Virus record (IMG/VR): IMGVR_UViG_3300046328_000278
Span: 1 to 29,662 of that record
DNA: 29,662 nucleotides
Origin: a virus
Strand: one strand, 5' to 3'
How positions within the stretch are numbered: the stretch's first letter is position 1; every line of letters begins with the position of its first letter. The notes beneath the pieces are model-generated. The model searched no databases. It was not told the origin of the DNA and was given only the letters and a program-made list of their open reading frames with translations. This document shows positions 4,269 through 29,557 of this stretch, one piece after another. Position numbers and translations under genes: made by a program.

Positions 4269-4625
4269 ATGTCTTTCACAACTCCACAGTGTACAAACTT
4301 TACAAGAGTTGACGTAGACAACGGTACAGGTGTATCGACTGCAGGAGCTGCAACAGTAAACGCTCAAGTAGGACAGATAACTACTGAAGCACTTACTACA
4401 GCGGCAGGAGCAACCTATACCTTTACTCTCACTAACTCTTTAATCAGAGCAACGTCAGTTGTTTTGGTAACGGTAGGAAGAGGAACAGCAACGACTGGAG
4501 AACCAGTTGTGCAGTTCTTAACTCCTGCTGCAGGGTCTGCAGTAATCTTAGTTCGTAACGTAGCAGCAGCTGCTGCACTTAACGGTACAATTACGGTTAA
4601 CTTCGCAGTCTTCAACATGGCGTAG
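4269..4625 (+). CDS. Small beta-rich phage structural protein
   Basis: 118 residues, almost entirely Thr/Val/Ala/Gly beta sequence. The patterns TTEALTTAAGATYTFTLTNS, SVVLVTVGRGT and VRNVAAAAALNGTITVNFAV are those of a widespread small virion protein found just after the major capsid gene in many environmental phages, probably a head surface or vertex protein. No cysteine, no helix-forming stretch. It is followed by a hairpin at 4628-4668. The start is an ATG with leader AACCACT, no SD. Exact role unknown. Confidence 0.55.
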   Translation: MSFTTPQCTNFTRVDVDNGTGVSTAGAATVNAQVGQITTEALTTAAGATYTFTLTNSLIRATSVVLVTVGRGTATTGEPVVQFLTPAAGSAVILVRNVAAAAALNGTITVNFAVFNMA

Positions 4626-4627
4626 TG

Positions 4628-4668
4628 CCTACTCGATTCATGACTCACAAGTCGTGAGTCGGAATAGG
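4628..4668 (+). other. Intergenic hairpin between two small head genes
   Basis: GACTCAC (4642-4648) pairs perfectly with GTGAGTC (4654-4660) around a 5-base loop. The stem can extend through TTC/GAA (4637-4639/4662-4664) and CCTA/TAGG (4628-4631/4665-4668). No U-run follows, so a simple intrinsic terminator is unlikely; an mRNA-processing or stabilising element that sets capsid gene dosage is more likely. Confidence 0.55.
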
Positions 4669-4697
4669 TATTAACATTATTAAAATAAAACAAAACT

Positions 4698-10131: not shown

Positions 10132-12231
10132 ATGGACAGAACTAACGTAACAGATACAGGGTACTCATACGGAGGAAAAGATTATACCTATGAGACAAGA
10201 CTGGATGCGAATAACAATCCTTACAGGGTTGATGTTCCTGTTGGGACAGCTCCTGCGCTTAATAAAGCGCCGGACGGAACAATGCCTTCAGTCCCAGGGA
10301 ACGCTCCAAGAGTTTCTACAACTACCATTTCAAACACAAACAAGATTGCGGAAGTCCCAAAGATAGTTTCTAGGTTTGACTCTGTCAAAAACAAAGGTAT
10401 CACCACTGACAATAGCGGTGTACCTCGCTATGCAGACGGCTCGCAAGTACCTGACTACACAGACCCCACGATACCGGAGGGTACAGCGCCTATTTATGGC
10501 ACTGTGAATGGGGTAGGAAACCGTATTGTGGGCTATAACACCCCAAACCTAGAGCGTGGTGGCATGACAGCAACTTACTTAGACTCTACCGGACAATCTA
10601 CGGATGGGACATCAGTAGAGGATAGGCAGACAAACGCTATTTTGGAGTCTATGAAGGCCACAACTGATGCTGCTACAAAGAGAATGCTTGATAACATACA
10701 GAGCAGAATGGAGCTAAGAAGACAGCAATTACAAGAGATAAACGCTAGTCAACTTGCAGGAGCACGAAACTCCCTCCTTATGGGTGACTCTACTGGACAG
10801 GGGTCTATGTCACAGTATGCGCCTCTTGCGTCTGCAAACATTGTGGGTGATCAGCAAAGACTCGCTATAATGGACCTTGCAAAACTAGACGTAGAAGAGC
10901 AAGACCTCATAGCGCAAGCAGAGGCCGCTAGGGAAAATGCTGATTTTAAAAGATTAGAAAAAAGCCTTGCTCTTATTGATGAAAAAAGACAAGCTAAAAT
11001 TGAGGCCGCTAAAAAAGTAAGCGAGAATATGGCAGCAGAGGACAAGAAGGCTAGAGAGCAACTTGTGAACTCAAAACGTAGTCAAAGCATTGCTAGTGCG
11101 TACTCTCAAGGCTTTACTGATGTGCCTTCAATACTAAATGAGCTAAAGAGGCAAGGTGTGAACGTCACATCAGCACAAGTGGCTGACGCACTTAAAGACA
11201 TCGTGCCACCCGGACTCGATGACCTTGTAAAGACTCTTAGAATAAATGGCGCGCCACAAGAGGTACTACAGAAGGTGCTTTCTTCTGCTAATATCAATGA
11301 TGCATATAAAAATGCAGGAGCGTACAGCGCAGGAGGAACTGGTATTATCGGTGAATACAATTTCTATCGATCACAAGCAGAAGCTAAGGGACAAATCCCT
11401 GTAGATTTCAACACGTATCAAGATATGGACGCTAATAGAAAGAGGTCTATTGCGAGGGCAGGGGCAGTAAATACATCTGCCACAGGTAGTCCAGTTACTT
11501 ACGCTAACGATTTAGAAGCTTTTGTTGACAATGTAGTAAACCTTATTCCCACAAAATTTGGTCAAGAAACTTTTAGAAATTCTTTAAGAAAAGCAAGGTC
11601 TGACAGTGACAAAATAAGAGTTGCAGCTACAGTTGTGCTTAAAGAGTCTCCTGCTACAGTGAAAGAAGCTTTTGCTAACCAAGCTGTTGCAGTAAAAGAG
11701 TTAGATAAAGCAATTGCACTTATTGATTCAGGTGTTAAGACCGGCGCTTTGCAAAAAGGGCAGCAGTATACTTATAACCTAGTTGGAAAGGACTTTGACC
11801 CTAAACTTGCAAAAATAGAAGGGTATATTACATCAGCTATACAACCGTATCGTAGTGTGATAACAGGGGCGGCGTGGGGCGAGCAAGAAGACGCAGAATA
11901 TGCTTCACTCTTTGGATCGACAAAATATGAACCAGAAGAACTTAAGCAAAGATTACAACAAGTAAAAGAAATGATGCTTGATAAAAGTGTGCAAGGACTT
12001 TCTTCACAGGTTGATCCACTTAACATGAGTGACACCAACTTTTTTGAAACAAAAAACACTATGGTTAATAACCTTGTACAAAGTGAAGACGAAGCAAAAA
12101 AGATGATTGATGCTATTTATGCAACACTTCCTCTCGACACTACAACAGCAATCAAAACACTTTTTAACAAGAACTACACAAACGCTCAAGTCGTAGAGTA
12201 CTTAAAAGCTAAAGGAATCATTAAAATTTAA
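10132..12231 (+). CDS. Probable internal virion (ejection) protein, coiled-coil
   Basis: 699 residues. The first 170 are polar and Pro/Gly/Thr-rich; residues about 175-320 are a long charged helix with heptad-like spacing (QSRMELRRQQLQEINASQLA, then KLDVEEQDLIAQAEAARENA and Lys/Glu repeats), interrupted by a Gly/Ser loop; the remainder is helical and soluble. No transmembrane segment. Large helical proteins encoded between the tail-nozzle and spike genes of podoviruses are usually ejected with the DNA to build a trans-envelope channel. It is only two bases after the previous stop. A baseplate or chaperone role cannot be excluded. Confidence 0.45.
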   Translation: MDRTNVTDTGYSYGGKDYTYETRLDANNNPYRVDVPVGTAPALNKAPDGTMPSVPGNAPRVSTTTISNTNKIAEVPKIVSRFDSVKNKGITTDNSGVPRYADGSQVPDYTDPTIPEGTAPIYGTVNGVGNRIVGYNTPNLERGGMTATYLDSTGQSTDGTSVEDRQTNAILESMKATTDAATKRMLDNIQSRMELRRQQLQEINASQLAGARNSLLMGDSTGQGSMSQYAPLASANIVGDQQRLAIMDLAKLDVEEQDLIAQAEAARENADFKRLEKSLALIDEKRQAKIEAAKKVSENMAAEDKKAREQLVNSKRSQSIASAYSQGFTDVPSILNELKRQGVNVTSAQVADALKDIVPPGLDDLVKTLRINGAPQEVLQKVLSSANINDAYKNAGAYSAGGTGIIGEYNFYRSQAEAKGQIPVDFNTYQDMDANRKRSIARAGAVNTSATGSPVTYANDLEAFVDNVVNLIPTKFGQETFRNSLRKARSDSDKIRVAATVVLKESPATVKEAFANQAVAVKELDKAIALIDSGVKTGALQKGQQYTYNLVGKDFDPKLAKIEGYITSAIQPYRSVITGAAWGEQEDAEYASLFGSTKYEPEELKQRLQQVKEMMLDKSVQGLSSQVDPLNMSDTNFFETKNTMVNNLVQSEDEAKKMIDAIYATLPLDTTTAIKTLFNKNYTNAQVVEYLKAKGIIKI

Positions 12232-17919: not shown

Positions 17920-18033
17920 ATGATAACATATAAATACGCTTTTTCTTTATCCCTTGCAAAAATAAGAAAAGTTTTAAAAACAACTATCTTGTTTTTAAAA
18001 AAGATGATTAAAGAAGAAAATGCAAGACCATAA
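17920..18033 (+). CDS. Possible 37-residue cationic peptide
   Basis: ATG at 17920, TAA at 18031-18033. Sequence starts MITYKYAFSLSLAKIRKVLK, then TTILFLKKMIKEENARP: basic, amphipathic, with one hydrophobic run. The leader AAGAAAAA precedes the ATG. Its stop overlaps the first arm of the inverted repeat at 18030-18077. It could be a small lysis-assisting peptide or chance; the sequence is AT-rich enough that a random 37-codon ORF is not rare. Confidence 0.3.
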   Translation: MITYKYAFSLSLAKIRKVLKTTILFLKKMIKEENARP

Positions 18034-18077
18034 ACAAACACTCCACTTAGAAAGGCCAAGGTGGAGTGTTTGTTTAT
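18030..18077. terminator. Perfect 17-bp inverted repeat, probable terminator of the late operon
   Basis: ATAAACAAACACTCCAC (18030-18046) pairs perfectly with GTGGAGTGTTTGTTTAT (18061-18077) around a 14-base loop. The T-rich end of the second arm (GTTTGTTTAT) can act as the U-tract, and by symmetry the element can work on both strands. It lies directly after the late genes and before the endolysin promoter region. Confidence 0.6.
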
Positions 18078-18217
18078 GTAAGAACTATTTTGTATTGATT
18101 TGTTAGCACTCCCCAGAAAGAACTTGTTAATCTACGAGTAAATTAACCTTTTTAAGTATAATATGATATCCACATGACGTACAGCAGCTATCCACTTTTT
18201 TATGTATACTATTACAC
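18078..18217 (+). promoter_or_regulatory. Regulatory region of endolysin gene with leaderless promoter
   Basis: TATACT at 18205-18210 is followed seven bases later by ATG (18218), so the start of transcription falls at or beside the start codon. A second, consensus TATAAT is at 18157-18162. ACGTACA, a variant of the shared operator core, lies at 18177-18183, and two DnaA-box-like sequences (ATATCCACA at 18166-18174, CTATCCACT near 18189) flank it. No convincing -35 box is seen, so an activator may be needed. Confidence 0.45.
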
Positions 18218-19630: not shown

Positions 19631-19956
19631 ATAGATATTATTGCTGCAAATTTTCTTCTAAAACGATTTTTGGGGTGTATTTTATCTGTTTGTCCATCTA
19701 TAAACATAAAAATCTGATAAAGACCCTTGCACCTTAAATCAAACGAGTGCGCTTTATGAGTTTTACCATTCCCTTTTACATCGTGGTGAAAGTTTATAGT
19801 GTCACCTTCAATAAAAGCGTGCACTCTGTTGGCTAATATAACATCCGTGTGCTTGGGAGTACCTATTGGCAATTGATAACCACGATTTATGGCGTCTATA
19901 AATCCAGCTTTTTTTAAAAGCTGAAAAGGTGTGTGGTTTACTGGTGTGTACTTCAT
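19627..19956 (-). CDS. Hypothetical early protein between helicase and resolvase
   Basis: 109 residues, basic, with His and Lys throughout (GTPKHTDVILANRVHAFIEG; FHHDVKGNGKTHKAHSFDLR) and a C-terminal RRKFAAIISI. The segments IEGDTINFHHDVKG and LYQIFMFIDGQTD look like beta hairpins. No cysteine pair and no transmembrane segment. It overlaps both neighbours by ATGA junctions, so it is translated with the helicase and the nuclease and probably shares a role in DNA processing. I do not recognise the family. Confidence 0.6.
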   Translation of the reverse strand: MKYTPVNHTPFQLLKKAGFIDAINRGYQLPIGTPKHTDVILANRVHAFIEGDTINFHHDVKGNGKTHKAHSFDLRCKGLYQIFMFIDGQTDKIHPKNRFRRKFAAIISI

Positions 19957-21194
19957 ATAACCTTAGCAAACTGCGCTTCGTGGAAGTCTTGTTTATTTAA
20001 TAATGTATTATATACCGCATTGTCTACCTTCCCTGACAGTAAGTATACATACAGGTTCTTATCTAGGTTGTTAGCACGCAGGGTTCGCCACTCTGACTGC
20101 TCCTTGTTCACAAAGGAATAGTCCTGTGAGGCGTAAATCGTACAACGAAAGCTCGGAAGCTCCCAACCTGCACTAATTGCCGTTTGCGCGATAACAACGC
20201 AACGTGGGCTAGTTTCAGCCACGTGGAGCATGCTTCCCCTATCCTTTGTAGCACCAGTTAGCGTGTAAACTGGTATTTTTAGTTTTTGTATATGCTTTTC
20301 TATAAGGTGTATTTGCTCTGTGTATTTCGCAAAGATCAGGACCTTTGGATATTCTTCGAGCAAGTCCTCAATAGCTTCTAGCTTGCCTGTAGGGAATACT
20401 TGCGACTCGCTAAAGTGAGTACCTGCTAGGACACCTTGCTCCACTTGGTGTTTCTTTCCAACGAGCACAAGAGGGTCCGGGTATTCTATAGGTAATTCTT
20501 TCAGCATCTTTTCTTGAGAGGCGGTTAATGGTATTTGTTTCACAACAAACGTCTGCTGTGGAACGTCAAAGTAGTCACTCATACGCCCTGTGTAGCCTAG
20601 AGTACGAACTGCTTTACCAAGCCTGTCCTTAGTAGCCTGATCTTTCTTTGCCATCCATATCTGTCTCATACCCATGCGCACTTGCGTGTAGAAGGCCTCT
20701 CTAAACTTGTAAAAGTCCCAATCCTTGCCTAGCATCCACGCTATACCTAGAACACACATAGGGGAGCGCGTAGGGGTAGCAGATACTGCATATATACGCT
20801 TCGGATCTGTTCTCTTTAAATATTCCATTGTGGCTTCAAATAATTGTGAGGACTTAGGTATTGTTACTCCCTTTCTACTTCTTGTGTCAGGAAGCAGCCC
20901 TGCAATCATGTGGCTTTCGTCAAATATCACAGTGTCGTATCTAGGTAGGGACTTATGGTCTCGTCTGAATGTTTCTTTAGATATTACATGTGGATGAAGT
21001 GGCTTATTGTCCATAAGTGTCCATGCTTTCTCCCACGTTTTATCTTCTACTGTGGTCTTAGGAGCTACTACTAATGTTGTGCCATAAATAAGGTGCATTG
21101 CAGTTAGGGTCTTCCCAGTTCCGCATCCTAGTGCTAACAGTGCCTTTTCTCTATCCTCATTAATAATGTCTTGTTGATGTTTATATAGCTTCAT
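19953..21194 (-). CDS. Superfamily 2 (SNF2/DEAD-like) helicase
   Basis: 413 residues. Motif I GCGTGKT at 23-29, a Val-rich strand with APKTTVEDKTW (motif Ia region), motif II DESH at 92-95 and motif III AVSATPTRSP near 136-147. The C-terminal RecA domain has VLIFAKYTEQIHLIEKH, then ISAGWELPSF (motif V) and QSEWRTLRANNLDKN (motif VI variant, with Arg). It hydrolyses ATP to move on or remodel DNA, plausibly in replication or recombination. Its start overlaps the 69-residue gene by ATGA. Length is short but complete for phage versions. Confidence 0.85.
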   Translation of the reverse strand: MKLYKHQQDIINEDREKALLALGCGTGKTLTAMHLIYGTTLVVAPKTTVEDKTWEKAWTLMDNKPLHPHVISKETFRRDHKSLPRYDTVIFDESHMIAGLLPDTRSRKGVTIPKSSQLFEATMEYLKRTDPKRIYAVSATPTRSPMCVLGIAWMLGKDWDFYKFREAFYTQVRMGMRQIWMAKKDQATKDRLGKAVRTLGYTGRMSDYFDVPQQTFVVKQIPLTASQEKMLKELPIEYPDPLVLVGKKHQVEQGVLAGTHFSESQVFPTGKLEAIEDLLEEYPKVLIFAKYTEQIHLIEKHIQKLKIPVYTLTGATKDRGSMLHVAETSPRCVVIAQTAISAGWELPSFRCTIYASQDYSFVNKEQSEWRTLRANNLDKNLYVYLLSGKVDNAVYNTLLNKQDFHEAQFAKVI

Positions 21195-21400
21195 AGATTC
21201 ACAATAAACTCTACTATCTCGCCTAGAGATAGTTCTTTAACAAACCTCTGGTTACCATCTTCGTACACTCCAAACGTTCCTGACATCCACACATCTAGGC
21301 GTATATGATCACGATGGAAGCGAATCAGTCTTTGAGGTGCTCTCTCAAACTCTATTTCAAATCCGACTGCTTTTGCTGTTTTGATTATTGATTCTTTCAT
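21191..21400 (-). CDS. Small protein downstream of a structured RNA
   Basis: 69 residues: KAVGFEIEFERAPQRLIRFH, then LDVWMSGTFGVYEDGNQRFV and a helical end (LSLGEIVEFIVNL). It looks like a small beta-hairpin plus helix domain, no cysteines, no membrane segment. Its start codon follows the folded region at 21408-21530 by seven bases and its stop overlaps the helicase start (ATGA), so the folded RNA may control translation of both. I do not recognise the family. Confidence 0.6.
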   Translation of the reverse strand: MKESIIKTAKAVGFEIEFERAPQRLIRFHRDHIRLDVWMSGTFGVYEDGNQRFVKELSLGEIVEFIVNL

Positions 21401-21407
21401 GTGTTTA

Positions 21408-21530
21408 TAAGGGGACTGATTGGAGTTACATCTAACTTAGAAGAAGGAACCAACCTTCTAAAAAATTGTGCTGTCTTATTAGTCGACAGACTCCTTCAGT
21501 TACCCCTTACAAAGACACGAAGTCTTTGTA
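21408..21530 (-). ncRNA. Candidate structured leader/intergenic RNA with multi-branch fold
   Basis: A long stem closes the element: positions 21408-21425 (TAAGGGG, ACTGA, TGGAG) pair with 21491-21509 (CTCC, TCAGT, CCCCTTA) with small mismatches. Inside lie two hairpins, TAGAAG...CCTTCTA (about 21438-21460) and CTGTC (21471-21475) with GACAG (21486-21490). A perfect 9-bp hairpin, TACAAAGAC with GTCTTTGTA (21508-21516/21522-21530), adjoins it. Read on the minus strand it ends seven bases before a start codon. It could be a riboswitch-like or autoregulatory leader, or an RNase processing site. Confidence 0.5.
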
Positions 21531-21537
21531 GACTATG

Positions 21538-21768
21538 TTAGTCGTTTTGTGTAATGCCTTTGTTAAGCCACATTGCACTTTCTTCGAGCTTAGTAAGAGC
21601 TGTACTCTTGCCTCGTCCGTAGATTACTGAACTCTCAATCTCTCGATAGAGAGCTTCGTACTTATCTCTAAAGTTTTGCATCTGTGCAATCATTTCTTCT
21701 GTCGGTTGGACATACTGAAATGTTACTGGACGCTTCATTGTTGAGCCAACTGATGGTAGTGGATTCAT
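21538..21768 (-). CDS. acb2: Acb2 family anti-CBASS cyclic-nucleotide sponge (DUF7681-like)
   Basis: 76 residues, helical. The C-terminal segment ST-ALTKLEESAMWLNKGI after a Gly-Arg-Gly-Lys turn (about residues 52-73) matches the conserved (S/T)LALTKLEEAxMWxNxAI block of Acb2/DUF7681 proteins, and the N-terminal half (FQYVQPTEEMIAQMQNFRDK) matches their first helix. Acb2 proteins bind cyclic di- and trinucleotides and prevent activation of CBASS effectors; some also bind signals of other systems. The length is usual for the family. It lies next to an SSB-like gene in the early region, where expression would precede defence signalling. Pocket residues cannot be checked without alignment. Confidence 0.8.
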   Translation of the reverse strand: MNPLPSVGSTMKRPVTFQYVQPTEEMIAQMQNFRDKYEALYREIESSVIYGRGKSTALTKLEESAMWLNKGITQND

Positions 21769-22266: not shown

Positions 22267-22305
22267 AAATGTTTGCTTGTTTATTGTTATTAGTTTACGC
22301 ACATA

Positions 22306-22423
22306 GTAGGAGGGAGAGAAGAGACAACATGTTATATGTAGACGCTTACTAACGTTACTCCCAGTGTAGACTTGCTAACCAGTTGGACGTCGATACGTTT
22401 TCTATCTCCTCTTTCCCTCCTAC
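22306..22423 (-). ncRNA. Candidate structured 5' leader of the SSB-like gene
   Basis: Two 19-base arms, GTAGGAGGGAGAGAAGAGA (22306-22324) and TCTCCTCTTTCCCTCCTAC (22405-22423), pair at 17 of 19 positions and enclose about 80 bases. On the minus strand the 5' arm begins at or within one base of the predicted transcription start near 22424, so the RNA begins as one side of a stable helix. The interior includes palindromes TAACGTTA and AACATGTT and two copies of GTCTAC. The AUG lies about 40 bases after the stem. Confidence 0.5.
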
Positions 22424-22459
22424 TTTACATATTTTAGCGTACGTTATAAGATAACGCAA
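22424..22459 (-). promoter_or_regulatory. Early promoter with palindromic operator
   Basis: On the minus strand TTGCGT (plus 22454-22459), a 17-base spacer and TAAAAT (22431-22436) give a start near 22424. The spacer contains CGTTAT-AAG-ATAACG (22442-22456), a perfect 6-bp palindrome, and the 11-mer TTATAACGTAC also found at 26407-26417. Both suggest repressor or activator control of the SSB/Acb2/helicase unit. Confidence 0.5.
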
Positions 22460-22477
22460 GGACGCATATTCGGCGTA

Positions 22478-22486
22478 TGTGGATAA
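22478..22486 (-). other. Perfect DnaA box (candidate origin element)
   Basis: TGTGGATAA, the reverse complement of the consensus TTATCCACA. It lies in the divergent intergenic region beside a promoter and a palindrome and overlaps the -35 region of the plus-strand promoter. A single perfect box could be chance; an 8/9 copy is at 29623-29631. Confidence 0.35.
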
Positions 22487-22508
22487 CCGCATTATCGCCG
22501 TGTATACT
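22480..22508 (+). promoter_or_regulatory. Promoter of the plus-strand insert
   Basis: TGGATA (22480-22485), a 17-base spacer and TATACT (22503-22508). The predicted start is about 22515-22517, that is, at the first G of the tRNA-like element. It runs opposite to the surrounding early genes, back-to-back with the promoter at 22424-22459. Confidence 0.55.
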
Positions 22509-22516
22509 GTAAAACA

Positions 22517-22563
22517 GGGGGGTGATTAAGTTCTACAGGCGTTCGAATCGCCAGCCCCCGCCA
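22517..22563 (+). ncRNA. tRNA/tmRNA-like minihelix ending in CCA
   Basis: Six G (22517-22522) can pair with CCCCC (22555-22559). Between them is a T-arm: GGCG (22538-22541), loop TTCGAAT, CGCC (22549-22552). G and CCA follow (22560-22563), as at the 3' end of a tRNA or tmRNA. There is no room for D and anticodon arms: only 15 bases link the 5' strand to the T-arm. The 5' half (GGGGGTGATT, TTCTACAGG) resembles the start of tmRNA (GATTcGACAGG-type). It may be a functional minihelix, a decayed tRNA/tmRNA or an attachment-site remnant. The acceptor stem has a mismatch. Confidence 0.45.
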
Positions 22564-22588
22564 GATTGTTCTTTACAAAGGAAAAAAC

Positions 22589-22795
22589 ATGACTTGCGCA
22601 GAATGTAAACAAGTTTTGAAACCGCATTTTGGGTACTTCACCCTTCTTGTGGCAGGGGAACGCTTTGATTTCCACCTCACATGCAGACCAGAGTTTGCAT
22701 ACCTCAAGGAGCAACATGAAGAAGCAGCCAAGCAACCCAGTCTTTTCGGAGAAGGTGGTAAAAGCTCTTCTCATGAACTGCATGGTGTGCGGTAA
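22589..22795 (+). CDS. Insert gene 1: small zinc-binding-like protein
   Basis: 68 residues, start ATG with AAAGGA seven bases upstream, unlike the SD-less genes around. Cys3-x2-Cys6 and His29-x2-Cys32 (CAEC ... HLTC) form a treble-clef or zinc-ribbon-like set. The C-terminal half is polar and overlaps the next gene by 80 bases in another frame. GC is visibly higher and codons such as CGC, CTG and CCG are more common than in neighbours. No specific family; a nucleic-acid or protein adaptor is likely for such fingers. Confidence 0.55.
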   Translation: MTCAECKQVLKPHFGYFTLLVAGERFDFHLTCRPEFAYLKEQHEEAAKQPSLFGEGGKSSSHELHGVR

Positions 22796-22958
22796 GCCAA
22801 CGGAAGGCTTTTATGGCGGACACGCAAGTGAAAGTTCGGTACCACAAGGAACTTGCTCGAGAGAGTGCGAACTTGTCCAAGCAGCAAAGCCGAAGTACGA
22901 CAGCTACTACAGCGAGGAAAATTACCTCATTCGTCAATCTGAAAACGAGGAGCACTGA
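22716..22958 (+). CDS. Insert gene 2: zinc-finger protein
   Basis: 80 residues from the ATG at 22716, chosen because a perfect AAGGAG lies five bases before it; a longer frame reaches back to 22629 but has no such site. A zinc finger is seen at about residues 22-51: CMVCGKPTEGFYGG, then GTCSRECELVQ (CxxC...CxxxC). The C-terminus is Tyr- and Glu-rich (YDSYYSEENYLIRQSENEEH). It overlaps gene 1 by 80 bases and stops in TGA one base before the next start. Function unknown. Confidence 0.6.
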   Translation: MKKQPSNPVFSEKVVKALLMNCMVCGKPTEGFYGGHASESSVPQGTCSRECELVQAAKPKYDSYYSEENYLIRQSENEEH

Positions 22959-22959
22959 C

Positions 22960-23028
22960 ATGTACCTTTACTGGCTTGTCTGGTTCAACATCATCTTCGG
23001 CATTCCGCCGATAAAACCCAAGGAGTAA
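22960..23028 (+). CDS. Insert gene 3: 22-residue hydrophobic peptide
   Basis: ATG at 22960, GAGGAG eight bases upstream, TAA at 23026-23028. The peptide MYLYWLVWFNIIFGIPPIKP plus KE is one short membrane-inserting stretch with a Pro/Lys tail. Its stop codon region contains AAGGAG, the SD for the next gene. It could be real, as in phage lysis/toxin peptides, or a coupling leader. Confidence 0.45.
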   Translation: MYLYWLVWFNIIFGIPPIKPKE

Positions 23029-23030
23029 TC

Positions 23031-23153
23031 ATGAAGTTCGACAAAAACCTGTGGGACGATGTGCGCTTTGTCGCAATAGTCCTGTTCTTCTTTATCGTCT
23101 TCTGCCGTGGCCTGTGGGAGCTGTGCAAGTCCGTTTACAGGTGGTTCGCATGA
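23031..23153 (+). CDS. Insert gene 4: 40-residue single-TM protein
   Basis: ATG at 23031, AAGGAG five bases upstream, TGA at 23151-23153 overlapping the next ATG (ATGA). The N-terminus is charged (MKFDKNLWDDVRF), then a membrane segment VAIVLFFFIVF and a basic tail (RGLWELCKSVYRWFA). A small inner-membrane protein, topology probably N-in. No family recognised. Confidence 0.55.
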   Translation: MKFDKNLWDDVRFVAIVLFFFIVFCRGLWELCKSVYRWFA

Positions 23154-23254
23154 GCTTCCTCTCAGTCGGACTTTCCGTCATTGCCCTTCTCGCCGTCCTT
23201 CACATGCTTGCGCAAGTGCTGGTCGACTTCTACAACCTCGTGAGGAAGCCATGA
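23150..23254 (+). CDS. Insert gene 5: 34-residue single-TM protein
   Basis: ATG at 23150 within the preceding stop (ATGA), with AGGTGG upstream. Sequence MSFLSVGLSVIALLAVLHML then AQVLVDFYNLVRKP: one membrane segment and a short basic tail. Its stop overlaps the next start. It pairs with gene 4 as a possible two-component membrane unit (for example superinfection exclusion), which is speculation. Confidence 0.5.
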   Translation: MSFLSVGLSVIALLAVLHMLAQVLVDFYNLVRKP

Positions 23255-23403
23255 ACCATATCAATTTGCGAACGACATCAATGTCGCTACCTCTTCCTAA
23301 GCCGCGTTTCGTTTGCTCGCGGTGCGGCGGACTCATTGGGGCGTTTTGCCCTCGTGATCCAAAAGACGATGCAACCCACTATTATTGTGGGCTCAAGAAA
23401 TGA
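23251..23403 (+). CDS. Insert gene 6: 50-residue zinc-ribbon protein
   Basis: ATG at 23251 overlapping the previous TGA (ATGA), with GAGGAAG just upstream. The core FVCSRCGGLIGAFCPRD then ATHYYCGLKK carries CxxC and a later Cys/His-x2-Cys set, a short zinc ribbon. The N-terminus is basic and Ser/Leu-rich. Stop overlaps the next start again. Confidence 0.55.
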   Translation: MNHINLRTTSMSLPLPKPRFVCSRCGGLIGAFCPRDPKDDATHYYCGLKK

Positions 23404-23576
23404 ACGTAGCACAAGCAATCCAAAAGAGCGGCCTGTCAGAACTTGAGTTCTTTCAAACCGCATACCTCAAAATCTTTGGCAAGGTTCACAACTGCGTCAA
23501 TGATGTTGTCCAATACAGGCAGCACTCAATCGTGCCGCCTTACATCACGAAATATATCCAAAAGATGTATGGCTGA
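23400..23576 (+). CDS. Insert gene 7: 58-residue soluble helical protein
   Basis: ATG at 23400 overlaps the previous TGA. MNVAQAIQKSGLSELEFFQT, then AYLKIFGKVHNCVNDVVQYR and VPPYITKYIQKMYG: two or three amphipathic helices, one Cys, no zinc motif. The SD here is weak, so it relies on coupling. The gene ends two bases before the terminator. Unknown function. Confidence 0.5.
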   Translation: MNVAQAIQKSGLSELEFFQTAYLKIFGKVHNCVNDVVQYRQHSIVPPYITKYIQKMYG

Positions 23577-23577
23577 C

Positions 23578-23617
23578 GACAAGACCACCCCACAAGGGTG
23601 GTTTATTGTCTTTTTTT
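23578..23617 (+). terminator. Strong intrinsic terminator of the insert
   Basis: ACCACCC pairs with GGGTGGT around CACAA; outer GACAA and TTGTC add five more pairs, and a run of seven T follows. It ends the plus-strand insert; its T-run overlaps the last codons of the minus-strand nuclease gene, which stops at 23603. Confidence 0.85.
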
Positions 23618-29490: not shown

Positions 29491-29504
29491 ATATATATGT
29501 GGAA

Positions 29505-29557
29505 TCCAGTATGTTGCTTTCCAATTGAGTTAGAAAAGCAACATACTGGACTCAATT
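29505..29557 (-). ncRNA. 16-bp hairpin with possible pseudoknot in the early leader
   Basis: TCCAGTATGTTGCTTT (29505-29520) pairs perfectly with AAAGCAACATACTGGA (29535-29550). The loop contains AATTGAG (29523-29529), complementary to CTCAATT (29551-29557) just outside the stem, so an H-type pseudoknot or two exclusive hairpins are possible. It ends 14 bases before the ATG at 29490. Confidence 0.6.

Follow-up and report, generated by a model that had tools for sequence, protein, structure and literature searches.

A structured intercistronic RNA downstream of acb2 in a phage replication module and its predicted burial of the next start codon

What does a strongly folding 137-base gap do between the gene for an anti-CBASS sponge and the genes that follow it in a phage replication module? 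The window, i.e., the whole stretch of 29,662 nucleotides that was analyzed, carries this module on its minus strand, which is thus the mRNA strand for the genes concerned. Their order is acb2 (21538–21768), the gap (21401–21537), a gene for 69 residues (21191–21400) and a gene for an SNF2-type DNA helicase (19953–21194; PHROG 62, E 9e-44). The product of acb2 is a cyclic-nucleotide sponge of 76 amino acids with the Acb2/Tad1 hairpin domain (PHROG 1454) whose nearest relatives are 56–70% identical; the name that it had been given from the DNA letters is confirmed by the match to the Pfam family Acb2_Tad1_hairpin (PF24729, E 2.1e-11). The 69-residue product belongs to no known family and has no homologue in the viral contigs searched, and the putative gene and its start codon are called from the open reading frame. 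The helicase start overlaps its stop codon as AUGA, with the junction reading UAUGAAG. The RNA of the gap is probably a control element for translation or RNA processing, of a kind known from other phages.

The structure in the gap is real and beyond what chance would produce. On the mRNA strand the 137 bases fold with −44.4 kcal/mol (z −5.1), which none of 200 dinucleotide shuffles equaled, and the plus strand gives −45.3 kcal/mol (z −5.5). A sliding scan of the whole window placed the gap among its four most structured non-coding places, and when the 137 nt downstream of every gene end in the window were compared, the end of acb2 came first (z −6.1, with the runner-up at −4.3). Since both strands fold about equally, folding by itself cannot separate a role as RNA from a role as DNA; in a longer context (21560–21381), the mRNA strand is favored (−51.1 vs −46.2 kcal/mol).

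The minimum-energy fold in that context (−51.1 kcal/mol) is built on a closing stem of 28 bp, with a 5′ arm at 21490–21521 and a 3′ arm at 21396–21426. Its blocks of 7, 11, 5 and 5 bp pair 21521–21515 with 21402–21396, 21513–21503 with 21414–21404, 21500–21496 with 21419–21415 and 21494–21490 with 21426–21422, and it is broken by a UA bulge (21502–21501) and a 1×2 internal loop (A 21495 on the 5′ side). Within it lie two inner hairpins, one of 5 bp with a 9-nt loop (21471–21489) and one of 5+6 bp with an internal loop (21434–21467; pair probabilities 0.6–0.9). A perfect 9-bp hairpin, UACAAAGAC-UUCGU-GUCUUUGUA (21508–21530), emerges from folding of the growing chain and from folds in which it is forced. 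The sequence-only reading had described a structured RNA with a closing stem of about 18 bp, two inner hairpins and this 9-bp hairpin, and all the parts are found, at a z of about −5 against shuffles on both strands. Two details change: the closing stem, which had been held to stop seven bases from the next start codon, in the minimum-energy fold pairs right through it, and the 9-bp hairpin, taken to adjoin the closing stem, is present but is an alternative to it, because its 3′ arm doubles as the 5′ strand of the outer part of the closing stem; the two share bases and cannot both form in full.

The outer block of the closing stem includes the start codon of the 69-residue gene (21400–21398), and the predicted fold hides this codon along with the 20 bases upstream. 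The AUG has pair probabilities of about 1.0, i.e., its probability of being unpaired is about 0, and it stays paired throughout 15–65 °C in the model. The leader, taken as the 20 bases before the start, has an unpaired fraction of 0.12, the lowest among about 40 starts checked in the window; the next lowest, 0.13, belongs to a GTG start at 22302 that we judge to be mis-called because an ATG 36 bases further on has the usual A-rich leader. When the gap was shuffled 200 times, none of the shuffles was as occluded (native unpaired fraction 0.10, shuffle mean 0.46, minimum 0.13). Typical starts in the window have no Shine-Dalgarno sequence and an open A-rich leader, often with ACT just before the ATG, a combination that hints at the host group. 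The 69-residue start is likewise free of a Shine-Dalgarno sequence.

Start-site burial as such is already known. In the T4 genes e, soc, 49 and I-TevI the Shine-Dalgarno sequence and/or the AUG is sequestered in a helix (PMC3014915). In these genes, and in mobE of Aeh1, as in the acb2 gap, the start region is buried in a stem on transcripts reading in from upstream (PMC3014915), and the predicted AUG here, with its unpaired probability of about 0, shares the paired start of the T4-type structures. The systems differ in that the 5′ strand of the T4 structures carries a T4-type late promoter, from which a late transcript free of the structure arises, whereas in the acb2 gap neither a promoter nor a terminator of its own was recognized in a search with the sigma-70 consensus, which may not be the type used by the host or phage, and a search of upstream regions for promoter motifs placed none in it. 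A further difference is that the T4 cases bury a Shine-Dalgarno sequence and/or an AUG, while the fold of the acb2 gap is branched, spans 137 nt and belongs to a genome in which Shine-Dalgarno sequences are mostly missing. This combination is what would be new here.

Our leading reading, held tentatively and somewhat short of an even chance, is that, on transcripts running through acb2, the intercistronic structure restrains the 69-residue gene and, because of the AUGA overlap, also the helicase; the overlap means that one structure could throttle both genes. In the stable form, pairing of the closing stem with the AUG and the 20 bases before it would lower translation of the 69-residue gene. 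During transcription the local 9-bp hairpin would form first, leaving the start codon mostly open, and passage to the closed form would require that this hairpin melt. Folding of the growing chain agrees with such an order, with the 9-bp hairpin form being the best until the start codon has been transcribed. With the hairpin forced, the fold is 4.2–4.7 kcal/mol less stable and the leader is open, at an unpaired fraction of about 0.9 or more; the AUG becomes open with a probability of 0.95 in the shortest context and 0.5–0.9 in longer ones. Both folds, with their energies, and the degree of occlusion are computed; we infer that the folds are present in the cell, that occlusion would cut translation, and that its purpose would be to keep Acb2 high relative to the helicase or to delay the downstream genes. 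The earlier proposal of translational control is partly supported by the occluded start and the two competing states.

A more elaborate version, which we consider quite improbable, is a two-state switch that reads the translation of acb2 itself: when acb2 is translated, the closed form would result and the downstream genes would be off, and when it is untranslated, the hairpin would persist and the start would stay open. A ribosome terminating at acb2 would, by its footprint, cover the 5′ arm of the 9-bp hairpin in part and may thereby favor the closed form; in fold predictions, blocking this arm does favor the closed form. If the leading reading is true, a single RNA fold would link an anti-CBASS sponge and a replication helicase of one phage, in a genome that seemingly starts most translation without a Shine-Dalgarno sequence. 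For such starts, control by structure is understood less well than it is for the classic T4 cases.

A rather unlikely but substantial alternative to restraint of the 69-residue start is that the gap is an element of RNA processing or stability, wherein a double-strand RNase of the host or phage would cut the irregular stem, part acb2 from the helicase mRNA and shield the acb2 3′ end. E. coli RNase III cuts T7 early mRNA at sites between cistrons (PMC4858673), and the long irregular stem of the acb2 gap is intercistronic like those of R1.1 and the other T7 sites, a likeness that here consists in a predicted stem. Burial of the next start codon is not a defining feature of the T7 sites, and a processing site has no need of one, but the predicted fold of the acb2 gap buries one. 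Also in keeping with processing are further hairpins between genes of the window, a covarying one at 4622–4674 (+) and strong ones at 18029–18078 and 29502–29553, which indicate that this phage often puts hairpins between genes.

The covarying hairpin, which lies in the gap after the gene following the capsid gene, appears to be a strong finding independently of the acb2 gap. Sister phages carry hairpins of common architecture and differing sequence at the matching gap: a lower stem of about 12 bp, a 1×2 internal loop (in many cases with C across from AA or AU), an upper stem of about 11 bp and a short loop. A covariance model built from one copy recovered eight others, and the resulting alignment has changes on both sides in 19 of 23 pairs and 93.8% of cells paired, matched by none of 500 shuffles; these counts are flattered by an alignment fitted to the structure, and slid controls drop to 38–54% paired. 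The window's own copy, which stood outside the model, was found at E 2e-4 with filters off and missed by a filtered whole-record search, and among helicase-related phages that had not been used for training, the best copies reached E 2e-9 and 1e-8. Phages whose replication module is a different one carry the hairpin too, and five of the loci gave no Rfam match. Copies lie at L068:11500–11551, L073:11605–11658, L074:3818–3870 and 11651–11698, L076:4248–4300 and 11962–12009, L079:11347–11398, L078:5744–5795 and L012:1443–1490, among others. Neighbors were read for 14 copies; in most of these, the last base of the upstream stop codon is the hairpin's fourth base, so that the stop belongs to the stem, and in many copies an A-rich leader runs to the following ATG. 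If the leading reading is true, the acb2 gap would also show this phage group to use RNA structure between genes, an idea that the hairpin family makes directly testable. Like the acb2 gap, the family is intercistronic and has a 1×2 internal loop; unlike it, its hairpin is simple, has a conserved UAC/AAUA loop motif, usually sits on the upstream stop codon and often precedes an A-rich leader. Against model R3 of this family, the plus strand of the acb2 element reaches 12.1 bits with E 1.4, and its minus strand 10.2 bits with E 5.2; the element falls outside the family, which speaks against bringing it under processing by way of these hairpins.

That the palindrome works as DNA, either as a replication or binding site or as what is left of a small mobile element with inverted repeats, its ends having made the closing stem, is improbable. 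The equal folding of both strands and the location in the replication module would suit it, as would the ends of the gap, which are visibly similar inverted repeats (GTGTTTATAAGGGG.ACTGATTGGAGT vs GTGTCTTTGTAAGGGGTAACTGAAGGAGT). Yet the palindrome is present in a single copy in the window with no target-site duplication seen, no copy turned up among viral and prokaryotic contigs (by exact core pattern) or among phage and plasmid records, and in the longer context, the bulges and three G-U pairs are more in keeping with the mRNA strand. That the gap gives rise to a trans-acting small RNA or to some other functional non-coding RNA is highly improbable: the element is a self-contained three-way junction of 137 nt, but it lacks an Rfam match as well as a sigma-70-type promoter or terminator of its own. 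A packaging RNA of the phi29 type is in effect excluded because this phage packs its DNA with TerS and TerL, where such an RNA would go with a phi29-type gp16 motor and no TerS or TerL; record L082, which matches at 99.95% identity over 3669 bases and represents the same phage, carries Terminase_3 and an Sf6-like small terminase. In the same record a chaperonin gene (Cpn60/TCP-1; L082:1760–3304) lies upstream of the terminase genes.

The searches made for relatives of the element itself found none. Against the 4227 families of Rfam 15, the gap stayed below every gathering threshold, with relaxed thresholds giving chance matches only, and a tRNA scan was negative. Blastn against phage and plasmid records returned nothing convincing, nor did viral and prokaryotic contigs when searched for the exact core pattern. 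A covariance model of the element, insensitive because it was built from one sequence, found in 488 kb of related loci nothing beyond the element itself, the opposite strand of its palindrome and one match at chance level, and in the full records of 15 sister phages no relative. These sister phages, identified via the major capsid protein (59–79% identical over most of its length), have the structural genes in common, and the replication module is essentially absent from them: its proteins gave two weak matches, one of them 31% to Acb2 over 54 residues, and no match came from full-record searches that used the helicase, Acb2 and the 69-residue protein as queries. Among 27 loci with helicase relatives, the closest 17 were read; the genes upstream are different ones there, and a matching RNA is absent; in Acb2 relatives, the DNA downstream of acb2 is unrelated.

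A looser regularity appears when position is compared instead of sequence. A strong hairpin lies within 60 nt past the acb2 stop in 7 of 25 Acb2-family loci (28%); the share was 6% among the 101 other gene ends that served as controls within these loci (p 0.004 by the Fisher and 0.02 by the Mann-Whitney test). The p-values are optimistic because some of the loci are relatives of one another and the cut-off of 60 nt was picked after viewing the sequences. These hairpins are unrelated in sequence to the acb2-gap element, and most relatives are without one, both of which count against the leading reading. The excess weakly supports the end of acb2 as a place where structured RNA is kept. As a separate observation, two Acb2-family loci contain a complete phage tmRNA gene (L041:2757–3148 and L042:2565–2955; tag AKASIPSPYAHELGLKNTVLA), which lies about 70–120 bases downstream of the acb2 relative.

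Some other features of the window lie near the module or elsewhere in its non-coding DNA. A cassette of small plus-strand frames of higher G+C, some with Shine-Dalgarno sequences (22303–23602), interrupts the minus-strand module, which is mostly without them; it is bordered by an inverted repeat (22305–22324/22405–22424) and a terminator-like hairpin (23582–23604) and is an insertion or an assembly join. Directly before the cassette, 22518–22564 (+) reads GGGGGG...GGCGTTCGAATCGCC...CCCCCGCCA; of a tRNA/tmRNA-like RNA it has the acceptor stem, the T-arm and CCA but not the other arms. ARAGORN and Rfam made no call there, and it is possibly the remnant of an attachment site. The two strong hairpins mentioned above are near-perfect and long: that at 18029–18078 has arms of 18 nt and looks like a two-way terminator, and that at 29502–29553, with arms of 19 nt, lies within the leader of a minus-strand operon.
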